Shown here: positions 1-7,150 of the stretch, piece by piece | How positions within the stretch are numbered: the first letter of the stretch is position 1 | How the letters are laid out: the number at the start of each line of letters is the position of its first letter | Assembly (NCBI GenBank): GCA_023249255.1 | Contig: JAHFCY010000173.1 | Span: forward strand, 1 to 7,150 | DNA: 7,150 nt | Direction of reading: 5' to 3' | Source of the DNA: Candidatus Lindowiibacteriota bacterium | Lineage (GTDB): Bacteria; Lindowbacteria; 2-12-FULL-62-27 | The notes under the pieces: generated by a model | The model's database searches: none | What the model was told of the DNA's origin: nothing | What the model saw: only the letters and a program-made list of their open reading frames with translations | Made by a program: the position numbers and the translations under genes

Positions 1-390
1 GAACAGGAACTGCAGGACGTGCTCTCCAGAATGTCTCCCCTCCGGTATGACTTCGTTGCCAAAGGCGATTACACGCTCCTCGATTTCGTCGGAGACCTGA
101 CGCCCGACATGCGGGACAAGGTTTTGTCCGCCTGCCAGGCCGCCGCCAGCTCCCTCCGGCCGTGCATTTTCCGGCTGGATGGGCTCAGAGCCATCGACTA
201 CAACAGCATGGCGCACCTGGTGTCGTGTTTTCAGAATTTGAAAACAAAAGAGGGTGTGGCGGTGTATGTGGTTGCCAAAAAAAAGAACGTGCAGGACGCC
301 TTTCGCGCCGTCCGGGGCCACCAGGTCTGCGGCCTGTACGACCGTCTGGACAGCGCCCTCGGCGCGATCCGCGCCTCCGGCCAATCATAA
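1..390 (+). CDS. STAS-domain protein, diverged (5' end may lie outside the window)
   Basis: A reading frame open from the left edge ends in TAA at 388-390. The protein is about 119 residues from the ATG at 31. A GTG at 19 is also possible, and the frame continues to base 1, so it could be the C-terminal domain of a longer protein. The pattern is that of a STAS (anti-sigma-factor antagonist-like) domain: a first strand pair (YDFVAKGDYTLLDFVGDLT), a helix, then strand CIFRLDGLRAID, the loop at the phosphorylation site, a helix, strand GVAVYVV and a last helix. At the loop where SpoIIAA has Asp-Ser-Ser-Gly this protein reads Asp-Tyr-Asn-Ser-Met (D56-M60 from the ATG at 31). The regulated serine is therefore not clearly present, and the protein may not be switched by phosphorylation. 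It converges on the minus-strand operon and is not part of it. The fold call is fairly sure; partner and function are unknown. Confidence 0.7.
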   Translation, partial: EQELQDVLSRMSPLRYDFVAKGDYTLLDFVGDLTPDMRDKVLSACQAAASSLRPCIFRLDGLRAIDYNSMAHLVSCFQNLKTKEGVAVYVVAKKKNVQDAFRAVRGHQVCGLYDRLDSALGAIRASGQS

Positions 391-391
391 C

Positions 392-417
392 CCGCCGCAC
401 TTTCACCCGCGCGGCGG
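392..417. terminator. GC-rich hairpin between convergent genes (possible weak terminator)
   Basis: A perfect 7-bp inverted repeat, CCGCCGC at 392-398 and GCGGCGG at 411-417, encloses a 12-nt loop. It fills most of the 31-nt gap between the TAA of the plus-strand STAS gene and the stop of the minus-strand HDOD gene. The placement suits a bidirectional terminator. Neither side has a T-run, so intrinsic termination would be weak, and in GC-rich DNA such a repeat could arise by chance. Confidence 0.35.
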
Positions 418-421
418 CTCG

Positions 422-1696
422 TCACCCCCCGATCATCGTTGCAAGCTGGCCGAAATTCGCCTCGACGCGCTCGGCCATCTCGTCCATGTTGATTCTCTCG
501 CCTATCTTGAGCGGCTGGCGATATTTTCCGGCAAGCTTTTCCAGAGTTTCGCTGTAGGCCAGCGCGTCAAGCGTCGGATCCAGCTCGCAGATGGCGCTCG
601 CCATGTGGATCACGATCACCGATTCCGAGAGGTTCGGCATGTTCACCAGAAGCTGAAGGTCGTGGTGGTGGAACATGGCGCTCTGGACGGTTTCCTTGGG
701 CATCTGCCAGAGATTGAACAAAAATCCGCCAACGTCGGCGTGCGTGCCGCCAAGAACTGTCTTCTCGGCGACAATCGGCTGTCGGCCCGCCTGGATCATC
801 CGGTCGATTTCGGCCTGCTGGGGCCGGAAGTATTGCATGATGACAAGATAGCCGATGTTGTGCAGCAGACCGCAGATGAACAGCTCGTCCGCCTCCGACA
901 TGCCCCGATGGACCCCGATCTCTTTGGACCACTGCGCGGTTCGGATGGAATTCTCCCAGAATTTTTGCGCGAACCCCGCCGGCACCCCCTGGAACTTCTG
1001 CATGACCGCGGCGGCCACGACCAGCTGGCGCAGTTTTTTCATTCCCAGCACGACGACCGCCTTCGACGCGCTGGCGACTTTTTCGCGCAATCCGTAAAAA
1101 GCGGAATTGACGACGCGAAGCATCGTCGAGGTGAGGCCGGGATCCAGCGACAACACGTCGCCGATCCGCTCCAGTTCCACGTCCGGATTGTCCAGCATGC
1201 TCACGACGCGGTGCGCGGTTGCCGGCAGAGGAGACACTTCTTCGATGTTGCGAAGAATCGAACGCGTCTCGCGGGCAAGCTGGATGTTTTCTTCCGTCGG
1301 CGCCGCCGCCTCCTCCACGGCCATGTCCGGATTGGCGTGCAGATAAGCCTTGATGTGCCCGATGATTTTGTCGATCGTGGTCAGCTTCTGCGTCACAGAC
1401 GCCTGCGCGAACAAAAACAGGTCGTCTTTCTGAAGTTTCAGAAGGAGCATCACTTGCTGGTCGGTCATGAGTTTCAGGCGGACGGCGCATTCGCCGAATC
1501 GCGTGCCGCTGCGGGCCTGCTCCAGCAGGATCACGTTGATCTGCTCGGGCGCGATGTATCCCCGAAATGCCCCGAGGTGCCCGAGGCGGCGGTCAAAGGC
1601 GCTCATCTGGCGGATGGCGCGCAGAATGTCTTCCTGGGCCATGATGTTGCTCGCCCGCAGATACTGGATGAACCCCTGAAGTTTGGCGAGGCTCAT
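422..1696 (-). CDS. HDOD-domain protein with N-terminal MshEN-like (cyclic-di-GMP-binding type) motifs
   Basis: This 424-residue protein is the last gene of the operon. Residues about 147-355 form a HDOD domain, a non-catalytic relative of HD phosphohydrolases found in signalling proteins. The diagnostic stretches are SPLPATAHRVV (155-165), LSLDPGLTSTMLRVVNSAFYGL (182-203), VLGMKKLRQLVV (216-227), GLLHNIGYLVI (276-286) and a later FHHHD. The HD pair is His279-Asn280 and the upstream His is missing (FWENS), so hydrolase activity is not expected. Residues 37-60 and 66-89 each match the 24-residue MshEN motif (RLG, a Gly at position 10, hydrophobic residues at 17 and 21, Gln at 24), separated by the usual 5-residue spacer. 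That domain binds cyclic di-GMP in type II secretion and pilus ATPases. The match is imperfect, so binding is an inference. The ATG lies 6 nt after the upstream STAS stop with no clear Shine-Dalgarno sequence, suggesting translational coupling. Confidence 0.9.
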   Translation of the reverse strand: MSLAKLQGFIQYLRASNIMAQEDILRAIRQMSAFDRRLGHLGAFRGYIAPEQINVILLEQARSGTRFGECAVRLKLMTDQQVMLLLKLQKDDLFLFAQASVTQKLTTIDKIIGHIKAYLHANPDMAVEEAAAPTEENIQLARETRSILRNIEEVSPLPATAHRVVSMLDNPDVELERIGDVLSLDPGLTSTMLRVVNSAFYGLREKVASASKAVVVLGMKKLRQLVVAAAVMQKFQGVPAGFAQKFWENSIRTAQWSKEIGVHRGMSEADELFICGLLHNIGYLVIMQYFRPQQAEIDRMIQAGRQPIVAEKTVLGGTHADVGGFLFNLWQMPKETVQSAMFHHHDLQLLVNMPNLSESVIVIHMASAICELDPTLDALAYSETLEKLAGKYRQPLKIGERINMDEMAERVEANFGQLATMIGG

Positions 1697-1702
1697 GCTA
1701 CA

Positions 1703-2032
1703 TCAGGGGGACTTGGGCGCCGGATCCGAAGACGACTCGATGATCATGTCCAGCCTCGAAAATTTGAGGATGCGTTTCAGATTGTCTCCCGAGCCCCAGA
1801 TCTTGAGATCGCCCCCGTTCTGGCGGATTTTCTGCGTCGCAAGAGCCGTCACGCCGATGGCCCAGGACGACAGATGTTCCACGCCGGTCATGTCCACGTG
1901 CAGGATGAACGTTTTCCGCTCGCAGTATTCATATAATTTTTTCCGGTAGCCTTCGATGTTTTCGGGCCGGACGTCACCGCCCACGACAAAAACGGTGGCG
2001 GCATCCGAGAGCGGCCGGCTGTCAAATGGCAT
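1703..2032 (-). CDS. STAS-domain anti-sigma-factor antagonist-like protein
   Basis: This 109-residue protein is a single STAS domain, the usual size for a SpoIIAA/RsbV-type antagonist. It shows strand ATVFVVGGDV (12-21), a helix, strand TFILHVDMTGVEHL (41-54), the site loop SSWAIGV (55-61), a helix, strand GDLKIWG (74-80) and a C-terminal helix starting at NLKRIL. Aligned with SpoIIAA, Ser56 falls on the phosphorylated serine, while Trp57 and Ala58 replace the usual Ser-Gly. It is therefore probably phosphorylatable but not textbook. The gene overlaps the upstream phosphatase-kinase gene by 11 nt and has its own strong ribosome binding site inside that gene. This points to it being the substrate of the adjacent fused kinase and phosphatase, which is inferred from position only. 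Confidence 0.85.
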   Translation of the reverse strand: MPFDSRPLSDAATVFVVGGDVRPENIEGYRKKLYEYCERKTFILHVDMTGVEHLSSWAIGVTALATQKIRQNGGDLKIWGSGDNLKRILKFSRLDMIIESSSDPAPKSP

Positions 2033-4394
2033 GGCCGGTCTCCTCCGGCGCGCGCCGGGCCCGCTGCGGCGGCCGCTGAATCAATCGCTTCACCAGCCGG
2101 ACGACCGTTCCGCCGCCCGGCGTGCTCTGGATGTCCACGTCATCCATGAACTGGCGCATCATGAACAACCCCCGGCCATTCGAACGGTACAGGTCCTGAT
2201 CCGATTCGAACCGCGGAATCCGATCGATGTCATATCGAAATCCGCGCCCGCGGTCGGTTATCGTGAGGACAAGCCGGTCGGGTTCGCGGCGGGCTTCAAT
2301 GGTTACGGAACCGTCCGGGCGGCCCTCATAGCCGTGCTGGATCGAATTGACGGCGGCGTCCTCGACCGTGAATTCGACCGCGAACGCATCTTCCGTCGAC
2401 AGGCCATCCAGCCTCCGAATCACGTTGTCGATGAACACCCTGAGAGTCGGCAGATGGCGGACGTCCGAGGGAATCGTCAGCGTCCTCAGGTCCGGTTCCG
2501 GCTGTTCCCGCCTCGCCGCGATTTCGGCCGGAGGCGAAATCAGAATGGCAGTGCAGTCATCTTCTTGAGGCCGCGCATCGATCGCGCCAAGCAGTAGTTC
2601 ATGGAGCAGGTCCAGAACGGGCCGGCCGCACGGGCCGCGTCGAATGTGTTGAAGAGCCGTCTCGCGCCATCCTCCGCCCAACACGGCGCTTTCACAGCCG
2701 TCGGTGTATAGAATCAGGAGGTCATCAGGCTCCAGATAAATGGTTTCCTCGGAAAATCGGATATTGGGAACGCAACCGAGAAACAGTCCGCCGGCGGGAA
2801 GCTCGAAAACTTTGGCGTCCTGGGCGCGCAGAAGCAGCGGATAATCGATGCCGGCCGAGGAGTATGTGAATGACCAGTCCCGGGGATCGAACACGCCGTA
2901 GAAAACAGAGACGGGGATTTCGCTTTTCTGGTTTTTCAACAGCACCGCATTGAGATTTTCCAGAACGTCTGCGGGCCGGCTTGCCCGGTCGTGATCGTCC
3001 GACGTCGCGATTTTCTGAAGCTGTTCCCGGATGGCGTAAGTCCAGATCGCCGCGGGAATGCCATGCCCGACGACGTCCGCCAGAACGACGGCCTGCCTGC
3101 CGTCCCGCAGATCATGAAAATCGTAGAAGTCACCGCCAACTCTGTGCGCCGGCCGGAACAGCACGCGCCGCTGGAGATGTTCTTTCCGCGCGCACTGATC
3201 GGCTGGAGTATCCTGGATGAGCGTGGAGAGATTCGAGTCCCAGTCCCAGAGCGTGCCGCTCTCCCTCGCATTGAAACTGTCCAGCATGTTCAGCATCCCG
3301 ACGATTTGATGGTTCAGGATTTCGATGAATTTGATGTCGGCGGCTTCCAGGCGGATATCTTCGTCGCGCCCCATGTAGACCAGCGCGTCAGCCCGGGTTT
3401 GCCTGCCGTCCGGCGTATCGGTTTCCCGGGACAATATCCAGGCCAGCGAATAGCCCTGGCGGCCCAGAATATTTCCGCGATTCAGCTCCCGATGATCTTT
3501 GATGTTCACCCAGAGTTGATTCTTCGGCATCTCGTCCACTTCGATGATGTCGGGCATGGACCCCCGCTCAGGCCGGCCTTTCAATAGAAACATTCTGAAA
3601 CAATTCGAAGGCAGTGTAGCCGCGTAAATCGCGGCGCGCTTCAGCCGCAAACGCCCCATGATGGTCAAAAGATATGTGTTGAACAGATCGAAGAGGCTCG
3701 ATCCGCTTTTGAACCGAAAGGCGATGTCTTGAAGCGTCTGGAAATTCCGGGTGTCCAGGAGAGCCTCGCGGGTCCGCCGCCCAACGGTCGACTGCCGCCC
3801 TTCGCCCCGGGCGAGATCGGACCTCCGGCCCAGATCCACCAGGCGCCGCAGCATGTCGCCCATGTGCCGTTCAAGCGTTTCCTCCGCCTGGCGGCCGAGC
3901 AGATCCAGAAATTGTTCGTCGGCCTGATTCGGCTCAATCATCCGGTCTGATCCGGTGATGACGAGAATGGACAATGCGGAATCCTGAATCGTCACGCCCG
4001 CCCCCCGCGTGGCGCCTGCGGAATCCTTCCAGCGGATCGCGTGGAGGTTCGAAAATCCCGCGGCCTCGATTTCGGCTTGGGAAGATTCAGACAGGATGTC
4101 GGACAGGGACATCCACCGGCGGTTCGGGGGAATCTGCAATAGCTCGATGGTTTCCGGGAGTTCTCCGGCGGCGTGGCCTTTGTGAAGAAACAGGCGCGAT
4201 TTGCCCGCGTCGGCGGTCGGGATGTAGACAGCCGCCCGGCGGAGCATCATCCGTCCCATCAGGGTCAGAAGGTAGATGTGAAATAATTCGGCCGGGGTCG
4301 ATTTGTGGCGAAATTTGGACGAGATTTCCCGGAGCGTCCGGACGTCGAACCGCGCCAGCTTCTCCGTGCGCGCTTCCCCCCGCAAATCGGTCAT
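2022..4394 (-). CDS. Bifunctional signalling protein: GAF-like x2, SpoIIE/PP2C phosphatase, RsbW-like kinase
   Basis: This 790-residue protein has no membrane segment and is expected in the cytosol. Residues about 15-180 and 212-372 are two related GAF-like sensor domains: YLLTLMGRMMLRRAAVY at 41-57 matches YLLTIMGRLRLKRAAIY at 241-257, exactly 200 residues later. Residues about 405-622 are a SpoIIE-type PP2C phosphatase with its metal-binding acidic residues: GGDFYD (D422), LADVVGHG (D440), SSAGIDYPLLL, YTDGCE (D565) and EDDCT (D612-D613). Residues about 638-770 are a HATPase_c_2 (RsbW/SpoIIAB-like) domain with N box VEDAAVNSIQHGY (N683, H687), DRGRGF (D714) and NGRGLFMMRQF (739-749). The protein should both phosphorylate and dephosphorylate a STAS partner, probably the product of the next gene, under control of the GAF-like domains. 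Asp679 sits where RsbW-type kinases usually carry the catalytic Glu. The start codon overlaps the stop of the previous gene (ATGA), so translation is coupled. Phosphatase-kinase fusions are known, for example HsbR of Pseudomonas and CrsR of Shewanella, but those carry receiver domains. Confidence 0.92.
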   Translation of the reverse strand: MTDLRGEARTEKLARFDVRTLREISSKFRHKSTPAELFHIYLLTLMGRMMLRRAAVYIPTADAGKSRLFLHKGHAAGELPETIELLQIPPNRRWMSLSDILSESSQAEIEAAGFSNLHAIRWKDSAGATRGAGVTIQDSALSILVITGSDRMIEPNQADEQFLDLLGRQAEETLERHMGDMLRRLVDLGRRSDLARGEGRQSTVGRRTREALLDTRNFQTLQDIAFRFKSGSSLFDLFNTYLLTIMGRLRLKRAAIYAATLPSNCFRMFLLKGRPERGSMPDIIEVDEMPKNQLWVNIKDHRELNRGNILGRQGYSLAWILSRETDTPDGRQTRADALVYMGRDEDIRLEAADIKFIEILNHQIVGMLNMLDSFNARESGTLWDWDSNLSTLIQDTPADQCARKEHLQRRVLFRPAHRVGGDFYDFHDLRDGRQAVVLADVVGHGIPAAIWTYAIREQLQKIATSDDHDRASRPADVLENLNAVLLKNQKSEIPVSVFYGVFDPRDWSFTYSSAGIDYPLLLRAQDAKVFELPAGGLFLGCVPNIRFSEETIYLEPDDLLILYTDGCESAVLGGGWRETALQHIRRGPCGRPVLDLLHELLLGAIDARPQEDDCTAILISPPAEIAARREQPEPDLRTLTIPSDVRHLPTLRVFIDNVIRRLDGLSTEDAFAVEFTVEDAAVNSIQHGYEGRPDGSVTIEARREPDRLVLTITDRGRGFRYDIDRIPRFESDQDLYRSNGRGLFMMRQFMDDVDIQSTPGGGTVVRLVKRLIQRPPQRARRAPEETGHAI
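2039..2046 (-). promoter_or_regulatory. Ribosome binding site for the second STAS gene
   Basis: The minus strand reads GGAGGAGA with its last base 6 nt before the ATG at 2032. This near-perfect Shine-Dalgarno sequence lies inside the end of the upstream coding region. It supports the ATG at 2032 and suggests the STAS protein is made at a higher level than the enzyme encoded before it. Confidence 0.75.
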
Positions 4395-4885
4395 GCGCGG
4401 TCTCGCCGCCCTTGCGCGGCCTTCACAGGTTTGCCGAAATATTTGACCAGAGACAGATTGTTCTCGCCGGTGTCGCTTCGGACATACTCACAGCGGTCCA
4501 TCAACGATTTGATCAAATGAATCCCGTATCCGCCCCGGGCCCTTGCCCGCAGAGACCTTTGGACCATGTCCCTGGACGGATATTCGTTGAAGTCGAAGGG
4601 CCGGCCCACGTCCCGGATCAGCACATGGACGCGGTTGCTCGTGGTTTCGATCATCACGTTTAAAGGGTTTGTGGTGCGCCGGTCGTAGGCGTGGCGGATG
4701 ACGTTGGAACAGGCTTCCTCCACAGCCAGAATCACGCGATAAATCCGCCGCCCGTCAATGCCGAGCGATTTGGCCTGGGCCAGGATGGCGCGCCGGATTT
4801 CGGGCAGACTTTTCAGGCTCGCCACGATCTCAAACGCGGCCGACGTCCGCCGTTTAAACAGAGGCTTTTCGCGCTTCCTTTTCAC
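4391..4885 (-). CDS. RsbW-like anti-sigma-factor-type serine/threonine kinase
   Basis: This is a stand-alone HATPase_c_2 domain of 164 residues from the GTG at 4885, a typical length for RsbW/SpoIIAB proteins. Numbered from that start, the N box AVEEACSNVIRHAY carries Glu57, Asn61 and His65; the G1 box is RDVGRPFDF (D92, G94); the G2 box is GGYGIHLIKSL (118-128). The expected role is ATP-dependent phosphorylation of a STAS serine, most likely the product of the overlapping upstream gene, and sequestration of an unknown partner. The start needs care. An ATG at 4936 would give 181 residues but would read 83 nt of the upstream STAS gene out of frame and add an unlikely N-terminus. The GTG at 4885 has a GGAG 10 nt upstream and gives a 32-nt overlap. 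The stop overlaps the next start as ATGA. No sigma factor gene is adjacent, so its target is unknown. Confidence 0.88.
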   Translation of the reverse strand: MKRKREKPLFKRRTSAAFEIVASLKSLPEIRRAILAQAKSLGIDGRRIYRVILAVEEACSNVIRHAYDRRTTNPLNVMIETTSNRVHVLIRDVGRPFDFNEYPSRDMVQRSLRARARGGYGIHLIKSLMDRCEYVRSDTGENNLSLVKYFGKPVKAAQGRRDRA

Positions 4886-5201
4886 TCTTGTATATCTCCA
4901 TGATTTCCGGCACGCCCAGCAGGTCGAAAGACTCATAGACCTCTTCGGAGAGATTCATGGCCTTCAAAGATCCGTCTCCCTCGACTTCGCTCAGCAGTAC
5001 CATGAATACGCCGATGCCGGCGCTTGAAATAAAATCGAGCTTCTCGCAGTCAATCAGCAGTTTTCGCCTGCCTTTTTCAATCAGCCCCATCGCCTCTTTT
5101 TCGAAGGCCGGCGCCGTCTGCGCGTCAACCGAACCGCAGAGTCTCACAATCGTCATTTCGGAATCCCAATCCGCGGGTTTTGAATCCACTTTGAAATCCA
5201 T
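4854..5201 (-). CDS. STAS-domain anti-sigma-factor antagonist (RsbV/SpoIIAA-like)
   Basis: This is a 115-residue single STAS domain, the classic antagonist size. Seen are strand EMTIVRLCGSVDAQTAPAF (15-33), a helix, strand KLLIDCEKLDFI (47-58), the phosphorylation loop SSAGIGV (59-65), a helix, strand SLKAMNL (78-84) and a final helix containing the LLGVPEI turn (94-100). Ser60 aligns with the phosphorylated serine of SpoIIAA. When unphosphorylated it should bind the RsbW-like kinase encoded next; phosphorylated, it should release it; the membrane phosphatase encoded before it should reset it. These pairings follow from gene order and family knowledge. An in-frame GTG at 5225 would add 8 residues, but the ATG at 5201 has a well-placed GAGGTG and is preferred. 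Confidence 0.92.
   Translation of the reverse strand: MDFKVDSKPADWDSEMTIVRLCGSVDAQTAPAFEKEAMGLIEKGRRKLLIDCEKLDFISSAGIGVFMVLLSEVEGDGSLKAMNLSEEVYESFDLLGVPEIMEIYKSEKEARKASV
4896..4899 (-). promoter_or_regulatory. Candidate ribosome binding site for the RsbW-like kinase
   Basis: The minus strand reads GGAG 10 nt before the GTG at 4885, inside the end of the STAS gene. The spacing is at the long end of the normal range. It is the main evidence for choosing GTG 4885 over ATG 4936, together with the position of the first kinase strand. The ATG at 4936 has a shorter GAGG 4 nt upstream, so the choice is not settled. Confidence 0.4.
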
Positions 5202-5207
5202 GCTTTG

Positions 5208-5213
5208 CACCTC
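5208..5213 (-). promoter_or_regulatory. Ribosome binding site for the first STAS gene
   Basis: The minus strand reads GAGGTG, complementary to the 16S rRNA tail, 6 nt before the ATG at 5201. It lies in the 20-nt gap after the phosphatase stop codon and decides the start in favour of ATG 5201 over GTG 5225. Confidence 0.7.
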
Positions 5214-5221
5214 GCCTTTCG

Positions 5222-6781
5222 TCACACGCGTTTAATGGCTACCATCGTGATATCGTCATAGGGCGGATTGCCGGCCGTGAATGCCGTGACCCGCTCCAGA
5301 ATCTCCCGGACAATCTCCTGCGCGTCCAACTTGCCCGACTCCCGCAGAACCTGCAGGAGGCGCGGCGTGCCGAACCGCTCTTCATTGGAATTCATCGCAT
5401 GCTGGATGCCGTCCGTGTATTGAAAAAAGACGTCGCCGGGATTGAGGTCCAGCCGGCGCGTTTCGATCAACCGGTCGAATATATCGATGTCTCCAATGCC
5501 CATCGCCATGCCGCCGCACCGGATGGATTCGATGACCCCGCTTGCGGCCCGATAAACCAGCGTCGGATTGTGTCCGGCGCTCGAGAACTCCACCGCGGCG
5601 TTGGCCGCGTCCAGCAGCCCGTAAAAAACGCTGACGAACATGCCTTTTTTCATGTCCGGCAGAAGAATGGAATTGGTCAATCTTAAAATGTCGGCCGGCG
5701 AGGATTCACCTCTGGCGGCTTTGGCCCTTAGAACGCTTCGCGTCACGGTCATCATGAACGCGCCGGGAATGCCCTTCCCCGAAACGTCTGCGACAACGAC
5801 GCCGATTTTTGAATGGCCGTTGTTCGTGGGGACCGACAAAAAATCATAATAATCCCCGCTGACCTCCCGGGCCGCGGCGTAGGCCGCGCCGAACGTGTAG
5901 CCGCTGACCTGCGGAAGTTTCTTCGGCAGTAGGTTGTGCTGGATCTGCGTGGCGATTTTCAGCTCCTGGTCCAATTTTTCCTTCTCGATCAGCTGAATCC
6001 GGTCCTCGCGGATGTTTCGGGTCATGACGTTGAACGTCTTCGCCAGATCGCCCACTTCGTCGTTCGAATCCACCCGGACCTCATGATCCAGATTGCCTTC
6101 GCCGATGATCTTCGCCCCCTCCGCCAGAACGTTCAGCGGACGGATGACGTAGGTGATGAGCATGAACGCCGCGACTATGGCAAGAATGGAAAAAATCAGC
6201 GTGGCGAACGTCAGGCTGTGGCGGGCGTCCCGGACAAAATATTTCATCCGGTCCTGCGCGGCGGCAATCGCGTCCTGGATGGGCCGCCGGGAAATCACGA
6301 CGTAGGCGTCCGCCACCCGGACGTTGATGCTTTTGTCGACGATCGGACCGGAGACCACCAGAAGTTTCTGTCCATCCGGCAAATCTTCGAGATCAATCCG
6401 AAGATCGCCGGTGGTGTGTTCGATCCACGCCGGAAGTACGGCCGGCGGGCCGCCCGACGGGGCCGATATCGGCACCGTCACTCTCCCCTTCTGGACAATG
6501 TTGATGAGAACGACGTCGGGACTTTTTTTCAGCTCCCGGACGACGGCGTCAACCGTCAAATAATCGCCGACTGCGATGGCCTCGGCGTTCGCCTCCAGGA
6601 TCGTGAAGATATCCCGCGCCCGTTTCTGAAGCTCTCCCCGCATGGACGTCTGTTGCTGGTCTACGATGGCGCCTTCCAGTTGATTCTGCTGGCGCACGCT
6701 CATCCACCAGATCGATCCCATCACGACGAGAATCAGGATCAGAAGAAGAACGCTGAATTTCGTCCGCAAGGACACCCGCAT
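5222..6781 (-). CDS. Membrane-bound HAMP-PP2C (SpoIIE/RsbU-type) serine phosphatase
   Basis: This 519-residue protein is the first gene of the operon. A short basic N-terminus leads into a transmembrane helix at about 10-27. An extracytoplasmic region of about 160 residues follows (about 30-188), then a second helix at about 190-212 and a HAMP domain at about 213-265 (RPLNVLAEGAKIIGEGNLD, then DEVGDLAKTFNVM). After a coiled linker ending in ATQIQHNLLP comes the PP2C domain. Its metal-binding sites are GDYYDF (D310), VVVADVSGKGIPGAFMM (D332), SSAGHNP (400-406), YTDG (D457) and PYDDIT (D509-D510). The protein should sense an external or membrane signal and dephosphorylate the STAS protein encoded next, as RsbU does for RsbV. 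After YTDG the usual Thr-Glu-Ala reads Gln-His-Ala; this position is not a metal ligand. The ATG at 6781 has an AGAGGTG 7 nt upstream. The sensed signal cannot be told; the periplasmic part resembles a PAS/Cache-like region in size only. Confidence 0.94.
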   Translation of the reverse strand: MRVSLRTKFSVLLLILILVVMGSIWWMSVRQQNQLEGAIVDQQQTSMRGELQKRARDIFTILEANAEAIAVGDYLTVDAVVRELKKSPDVVLINIVQKGRVTVPISAPSGGPPAVLPAWIEHTTGDLRIDLEDLPDGQKLLVVSGPIVDKSINVRVADAYVVISRRPIQDAIAAAQDRMKYFVRDARHSLTFATLIFSILAIVAAFMLITYVIRPLNVLAEGAKIIGEGNLDHEVRVDSNDEVGDLAKTFNVMTRNIREDRIQLIEKEKLDQELKIATQIQHNLLPKKLPQVSGYTFGAAYAAAREVSGDYYDFLSVPTNNGHSKIGVVVADVSGKGIPGAFMMTVTRSVLRAKAARGESSPADILRLTNSILLPDMKKGMFVSVFYGLLDAANAAVEFSSAGHNPTLVYRAASGVIESIRCGGMAMGIGDIDIFDRLIETRRLDLNPGDVFFQYTDGIQHAMNSNEERFGTPRLLQVLRESGKLDAQEIVREILERVTAFTAGNPPYDDITMVAIKRV

Positions 6782-6849: not shown

Positions 6850-7150
6850 TTACGCGGAAACCTTGATTTTCAGATACAGATAAACCACGGCGAGAGCCGC
6901 GTAGGCGGTGAACGAAATTCCCAGCAGTACCTTCGATAAAAGTCCGGGCTTGAGCGGCTCCGGCAGGCCACGCCGCAGGGGGCCGTGAACCACGAGGATC
7001 AGCGCGCCGGTGTAGATCACCGTGCCGATGAACCCCAAAATTGCGGACAGGATGATGAGCGTGCCGGGCTGGTCGATCAGCATCGTCACGCCGGTCACCA
7101 CCGTCAGGAAAACAATCATCCACCGGTACCAGACCGTTTCGTTAACGGCC
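6850..7150 (-). CDS. C-terminal fragment of a multi-pass membrane protein, possibly Nramp-family metal transporter
   Basis: The frame is open to the right edge of the window and ends in TAA at 6852-6850, so the 5' part is missing; about 100 residues are visible. They hold three hydrophobic segments: MIVFLTVVTGVTMLI, LIILSAILGFIGTVIYTGALILV, and VLLGISFTAYAALAVVYLYL near the end. Between the last two is a cytosolic-type loop, RRGLPEPLKPG. The Asn-Glu-Thr at the start, the Leu-Pro-x-x-Leu-(Lys/Arg)-Pro loop and the final helix resemble the C-terminal helices of Nramp-like divalent-metal transporters as I know them. The identification rests on this short fragment alone and other multi-pass transporters are possible. 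An internal ATG at 7119 would give 89 residues, but the upstream frame stays open and hydrophobic helix 1 starts there, so a truncated longer gene is more likely. It appears to belong to a separate transcription unit. Confidence 0.6.
   Translation of the reverse strand, partial: AVNETVWYRWMIVFLTVVTGVTMLIDQPGTLIILSAILGFIGTVIYTGALILVVHGPLRRGLPEPLKPGLLSKVLLGISFTAYAALAVVYLYLKIKVSA

Follow-up and report, generated by a model that had tools for sequence, protein, structure and literature searches.

Two partner-switching modules kept together in a five-gene locus of Candidatus Lindowbacteria

Introduction

What do two partner switches do side by side when no sigma factor gene stands next to them? 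The question is raised by a 7,150-base window, the whole of one contig (G000:C207) of a draft Candidatus Lindowbacteria genome. A sequence-only reading had described six of its genes as a two-tier partner-switching operon with an HDOD protein as possible output, and had taken both the missing sigma factor and the presence of more than one set as unusual. We compared the window genome (G000) with two genomes of the same family, G001 (Candidatus Lindowbacteria RIFCSPLOWO2_12_FULL_62_27; locus on contig MFPR01000013.1) and G002 (JACQOF010000103.1). These three draft genomes stand for the phylum throughout.

Results

Conservation of the operon

The order RsbU–STAS1–RsbW–PPK–STAS2 was kept in 3/3 genomes, which represent three genera. 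PPK is our name for the phosphatase–kinase fusion protein (GAF-like/SpoIIE/HATPase). These five genes form a conserved unit to which the HDOD gene does not belong. The six-gene set read from the window was therefore upheld in part: five genes co-occur in every genome, and the HDOD gene is missing at the two other loci, where STAS2 is followed by a convergent IMPase-like gene (G001) or by convergent respiratory genes (G002). The two halves of the operon did not occur apart in the relatives. Identity to the window proteins was 58% for RsbU (G001), 61–64% for STAS1, 51–56% for RsbW, 43–47% for PPK and 71–72% for STAS2, the operon's best-conserved protein. In G002 the contig begins within RsbU, of which the C-terminal 86 residues are left. 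The genes of the window are as follows.

5222–6781, minus strand: RsbU-like membrane phosphatase, 519 amino acids (Pfam SpoIIE and HAMP, hydrophobic segments, identity to G001)
4854–5225, minus strand: STAS1, RsbV-like substrate (Pfam STAS, alignment to RsbV, chlamydial motif)
4391–4885, minus strand: RsbW-like serine kinase, HATPase_c_2 (Pfam, kinase motifs; start uncertain)
2022–4394, minus strand: PPK, 790 amino acids, two tentative GAF-like domains, SpoIIE phosphatase and HATPase_c_2 kinase (Pfam, internal repeat, structure match 3ke6)
1703–2032, minus strand: STAS2 (candidate Ser56 in LSSWAIG, conservation)
422–1696, minus strand: HDOD protein with an N-terminal MshEN-like cyclic di-GMP (c-di-GMP) motif (Pfam, motif, paralogue family)

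The tight, co-directional packing of all six genes at 422–6781 was borne out. Overlaps of 4 nucleotides (nt) were found for RsbU/STAS1, 32 nt for STAS1/RsbW (from the GTG start at 4885), 4 nt for RsbW/PPK and 11 nt for PPK/STAS2; the last gap, STAS2/HDOD, is 6 nt.

No sigma factor gene adjoins the operon in the window, in either flank of G001 or in the downstream flank of G002, in line with what had been read from the window. The sigma genes found in the three genomes, among them RpoD, a second group resembling it and a FliA encoded within the flagellar cluster, lie on other contigs, and the adjacent cognate sigma gene of a SigB/SigF operon was not found. A scan of 84,980 species genomes for full PPK, made with a narrow pattern, matched only the two Lindowbacteria loci already known, the other matches being single domains.

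The two modules

Both modules carry the parts of a partner switch: PP2C Asp residues, the N box and glycine motifs of HATPase_c_2, and a serine in the STAS loop. The Asp motifs GD[FY]YD, ADV.G[HK]G, TDG and DD.T are found in RsbU and in PPK; RsbW and the kinase at the PPK C-terminus each have the N box, DxG and glycine motifs. The proposed inventory of two phosphatases, two RsbW-like kinase domains and two STAS proteins was confirmed by Pfam matches, intact catalytic motifs and intact candidate serines.

In module 1, RsbU matched SpoIIE (1e-44) and HAMP (8e-14). It has hydrophobic segments at about residues 1–31 and 188–220, and it is the only one of the two phosphatases that has such segments. 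Its build is an extracytoplasmic part of about 150 residues between two transmembrane segments, followed by HAMP and SpoIIE/PP2C; Pfam gave no match for the extracytoplasmic domain. STAS1 (Pfam STAS, 1e-15) starts at GTG, with an in-frame ATG at 5201 as an alternative start. Its Ser68, in FISSAGI, aligns with RsbV Ser56 and is a candidate phospho-acceptor. FISSAGI matches the chlamydial RsbV motif Y[MIL]SSAG[IVML], and chlamydial RsbV proteins are phosphorylated at YMSSAGL and its variants (PMC11619594). RsbW matched HATPase_c_2 (5e-26) and scored as an RsbW/SpoIIAB-like kinase; its longest frame runs from 4936 and its start is uncertain.

In module 2, PPK matched SpoIIE (3e-35) and HATPase_c_2 (8e-26) and has no hydrophobic segments; the division into one membrane-bound and one cytosolic switch stood. 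The N-terminal 390 residues of PPK consist of a duplication: residues 5–214 align with 204–391 of the G001 relative. A low-depth AlphaFold model (three sequences) showed two alpha/beta blocks in this half. The model is mediocre overall, with a mean predicted local distance difference test score of 59 and a predicted template modelling score of 0.36. Since the blocks reach 70–85 and phytochrome GAF-region structures were among the Foldseek matches, we tentatively assign two GAF-like domains. No REC match was found in the PPK N-terminus, the input domain expected from the HsbR–HsbA pathway. The N-terminal half occurred in Lindowbacteria only, among 386 genomes searched. The best structure match for the enzymatic half was 3ke6, the RsbU–RsbW protein Rv1364c. 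STAS2 (Pfam STAS, 2e-7) has Ser56, in LSSWAIG, at the corresponding place as a candidate phospho-acceptor.

Orphan STAS2-like proteins were seen near repeat-rich surface-protein genes at L077 (G002:C68, 5741–6085) and at L041 (G000:C115, 661–260). They carry FCSWALG and ICSRALG and are possible second substrates of PPK.

The HDOD gene

The HDOD protein matched Pfam HDOD at 7e-53. Its N-terminus, which also resembles that of PilF, matched the MshE-type c-di-GMP motif at 5.8e-8, short of the curated cut-off in the case of the window member; 17/17 paralogues match the motif. The MshEN–HDOD family has 5, 9 and 5 dispersed members in the three genomes, most of them away from switch genes, out of 8–12 HDOD matches per genome overall. 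In the tree, the window copy groups with five others situated elsewhere. The HDOD protein as a conserved member and output of the operon was accordingly rejected: the relatives' loci are without the gene, other genes follow STAS2 there, and the protein belongs to a dispersed family. An assembly chimera or foreign origin left no sign, the G+C content of the gene (0.598) being close to that of the contig (0.592); the adjacency rests on one draft contig.

The terminator scan found no terminator between STAS2 and HDOD, and the HDOD gene is probably co-transcribed with the operon in the window genome. There it may supply a local, genome-specific tie to c-di-GMP.

HDOD-family genes adjoin switch genes at two further loci. 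At L083, an HDOD gene is followed after a 27-nt gap by an RsbW kinase 48% identical to that of the operon. At L084, an HDOD gene is divergent from a SpoIIE–HATPase gene with its STAS; at L039, the G000 counterpart of L084, the HDOD gene is missing. The window copy lies in one subclade, and the adjacencies count as two independent ones because the L083 and L084 copies are sisters in another. By a rough Poisson estimate, made post hoc with switch loci counted by hand, two or more independent adjacencies would have a probability of 0.002. We take the adjacency as a possible lead, not a result.

The expansion of the MshEN–HDOD family, 5–9 members per genome, is lineage-specific, and several members cluster with REC–STAS proteins at L079 (G001:C6). 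The N-terminal domain was matched weakly outside the phylum (386 genomes).

Flanks of the operon

Three further features frame the six genes in the window.

392–417, minus strand: terminator-like hairpin of 9 pairs, 8 of them G–C, 3' of the HDOD stop (terminator scan)
1–390, plus strand: convergent gene truncated at the contig end, encoding the STAS-like C-terminal domain of a REC–STAS protein with no Ser at the phospho-site (IDYNSMAH)
6850–7149, minus strand: upstream membrane protein, truncated at the contig end to its C-terminal part (neighbour position not conserved)

The hairpin is weak taken alone, as 8 terminator-like sites were seen and 6.8 expected. The REC–STAS protein at 1–390 has a homologue in the G001 HDOD cluster (L079, 8463–9617). 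Upstream of RsbU, G001 has a TPR/outer-membrane gene at 31 nt and a gene for a large surface protein. At L036 (G001:C13, 3–6325) and L158 (G002:C105, 1656–8314), an RsbU-like phosphatase is immediately preceded by a TPR/PorV-like protein and a large surface protein whose C-terminus resembles FlgD, a pair seen in these two genomes and not in the window.

Related switch loci

Close paralogues of parts of module 1 are present in the same genomes: STAS1–RsbW at L155 (51/48% identity) and RsbU–RsbW at L156 (50/43%). Further combinations there are STAS–RsbU–PAS/HTH (L157) and REC–RsbW (L154). In four distant genomes outside the phylum, 4/4 examined loci of this type (L184–L187) hold a single set without a neighbouring sigma gene, either STAS with a SpoIIE–HATPase fusion or STAS–kinase–SpoIIE, which weakens the view that a missing sigma gene is unusual. 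A PPK-type fusion with STAS is common as a two-gene unit elsewhere, as at L184–L186 and at L203, where REC–SpoIIE–HATPase is followed by a STAS2-like protein. At L204, three SpoIIE proteins occur with RsbW and STAS. In 20 other genomes that carry SpoIIE, only one more close SpoIIE pair turned up (G011:C64), with no STAS or kinase match at its locus. Given this survey, two phosphatases and two STAS proteins in one operon are an uncommon arrangement of common units.

A separate arrangement was seen in 3/3 genomes. Mla-like lipid-transport genes, identified by eye as MlaF, MlaD and in some cases MlaE, come after a GAF–SpoIIE–HATPase protein and a STAS protein with an intact DSSG site at L039 (G000:C161, 7524–2979), L084 (G001:C28, 7105–2621) and L162 (G002:C126, 10498–6057). 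This suggests phospho-control of an MlaB-like STAS subunit.

Comparison with known systems

The HptB pathway of Pseudomonas aeruginosa is close in form to module 2: HsbR, like PPK, joins a PP2C phosphatase and a HATPase kinase in one chain next to one STAS substrate. HsbR both phosphorylates and dephosphorylates HsbA, which in its phosphorylated form binds the c-di-GMP synthase HsbD; the hsbA-hsbR-hptB operon has no sigma gene, and HsbA links to FlgM and the c-di-GMP enzyme (PMC5085249). HsbR differs in its REC input, where PPK has the tandem GAF-like domains, and the pathway has no RsbU–STAS–RsbW trio in front. Rv1364c of Mycobacterium tuberculosis (PDB 3ke6) also unites RsbU and RsbW domains in one chain. 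Its input domain is a PAS and its RsbV domain is fused to the chain, whereas STAS2 has a gene of its own in the operon.

RsbX is part of the two-phosphatase set of the Rsb operon. This operon, rsbRSTUVW-sigB-rsbX of Bacillus and Listeria, likewise has two linked tiers with two kinases, two phosphatases and several STAS proteins (PMC8256260). Unlike the Lindowbacteria operon, it contains sigB and the stressosome proteins RsbR/RsbS, and no phosphatase–kinase fusion. No multi-domain RsbR is encoded in our operon. SiaABCD of P. aeruginosa resembles the RsbU set in its HAMP–PP2C membrane phosphatase, kinase and STAS-like substrate and in having no sigma factor. In NCBIfam, RsbU matched SiaA best, though at a score far below the cut-off. 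SiaABCD is a single set, and its output is the diguanylate cyclase SiaD within the operon (PMC8457831). The icfG cluster of Synechocystis shares an Rsb-type kinase, a phosphatase and two STAS proteins, with no sigma gene among the named genes; it has one kinase and one phosphatase, and the substrates of the kinase are these two STAS proteins plus a third whose gene lies elsewhere (PMC12329169). Together with L204, the two-tier rsb operon and the two-STAS icfG cluster make the presence of more than one set less unusual than first thought.

Discussion

We consider it probable that two ordinary partner-switching modules have been combined at the locus into one Lindowbacteria transcription unit, with envelope and cytosolic inputs, a target elsewhere and a later-inserted HDOD gene. 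In module 1, the membrane RsbU, with extracytoplasmic input via HAMP, would dephosphorylate STAS1, and RsbW would phosphorylate it. In module 2, the cytosolic PPK would sense through its tandem GAF-like domains and both phosphorylate and dephosphorylate STAS2. The unphosphorylated STAS proteins would bind or release a partner. From the gene order, with HsbR–HsbA, IcfG and Rsb as precedents, we infer that each kinase pairs with its neighbouring STAS. Co-expression would allow an envelope and a cytosolic signal to be integrated. The target may be an unlinked sigma or anti-sigma factor or a c-di-GMP-related enzyme, and STAS2 is its more likely contact because of its high conservation. The HDOD gene would have come from the expanded paralogue family and would not be an essential part.

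Several points weigh against this. The evidence comes from three draft genomes, one with RsbU cut by a contig end. One kinase might serve several STAS proteins, as in IcfG (PMC12329169). In a sample of three genomes, the HDOD gene may also have been lost from the two relatives rather than gained in the window genome.

The modules might also be two unrelated switches with their own targets, sharing a promoter and no cross-regulation. Neither module lacks a part, each kind is commonly found singly, and SpoIIE and RsbU discriminate strongly between substrates in B. subtilis (PMC11418112). Linkage and order, however, persist in three genera at 43–64% enzyme identity, which suggests selection for joint action; operon inertia may explain the linkage at three genomes. 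We find this doubtful, though worth keeping in mind. A serial cascade seems to us unlikely. There, RsbW freed from STAS1 would bind the N-terminal region of PPK instead of a sigma factor, much like the activation of RsbU by RsbT in the stressosome cascade of Bacillus, and STAS2 would be the sole output. The gene order does run from membrane input to STAS2, whose conservation (71–72% vs 43–64%) is expected of a node with several partners, and Rsb is a two-tier precedent (PMC8256260). The kinase, however, scores as RsbW/SpoIIAB-like and gave no specific RsbT signal in libraries that do not resolve RsbT membership. That the switches are linked in series is a matter of inference only.

An output through the HDOD protein is distinctly improbable. 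STAS2 or RsbW would bind it, and the signal would pass on via the c-di-GMP motif. The 6-nt spacing without a terminator and the neighbours at L083 and L084 are in its favour, and precedents exist in HsbA–HsbD (PMC5085249) and in SadB, an HDOD protein that binds c-di-GMP and acts on flagellar synthesis; the mechanism of the HDOD domain is not established (PMC6543031). Against it, the gene is missing at the two other operon loci and at L039, and most of the family is located elsewhere. A broader form of the idea is a long shot: the expanded family would be exchangeable clients or readers of RsbW/STAS switches, tying partner switching to c-di-GMP without a sigma factor, and the operon would be a docking site where two switches meet on one HDOD output.

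Conclusions

The five-gene unit is a conserved, lineage-specific arrangement of known parts, with no new part or mechanism. It shows two partner switches conserved together with no target nearby, in a phylum that has no cultured members. The recurrence of HDOD proteins with a c-di-GMP motif near switch genes offers a testable lead for the HDOD domain. If the two modules communicate, the locus would be an example of how signals from the envelope and the cytosol are combined in bacteria at the level of STAS proteins.

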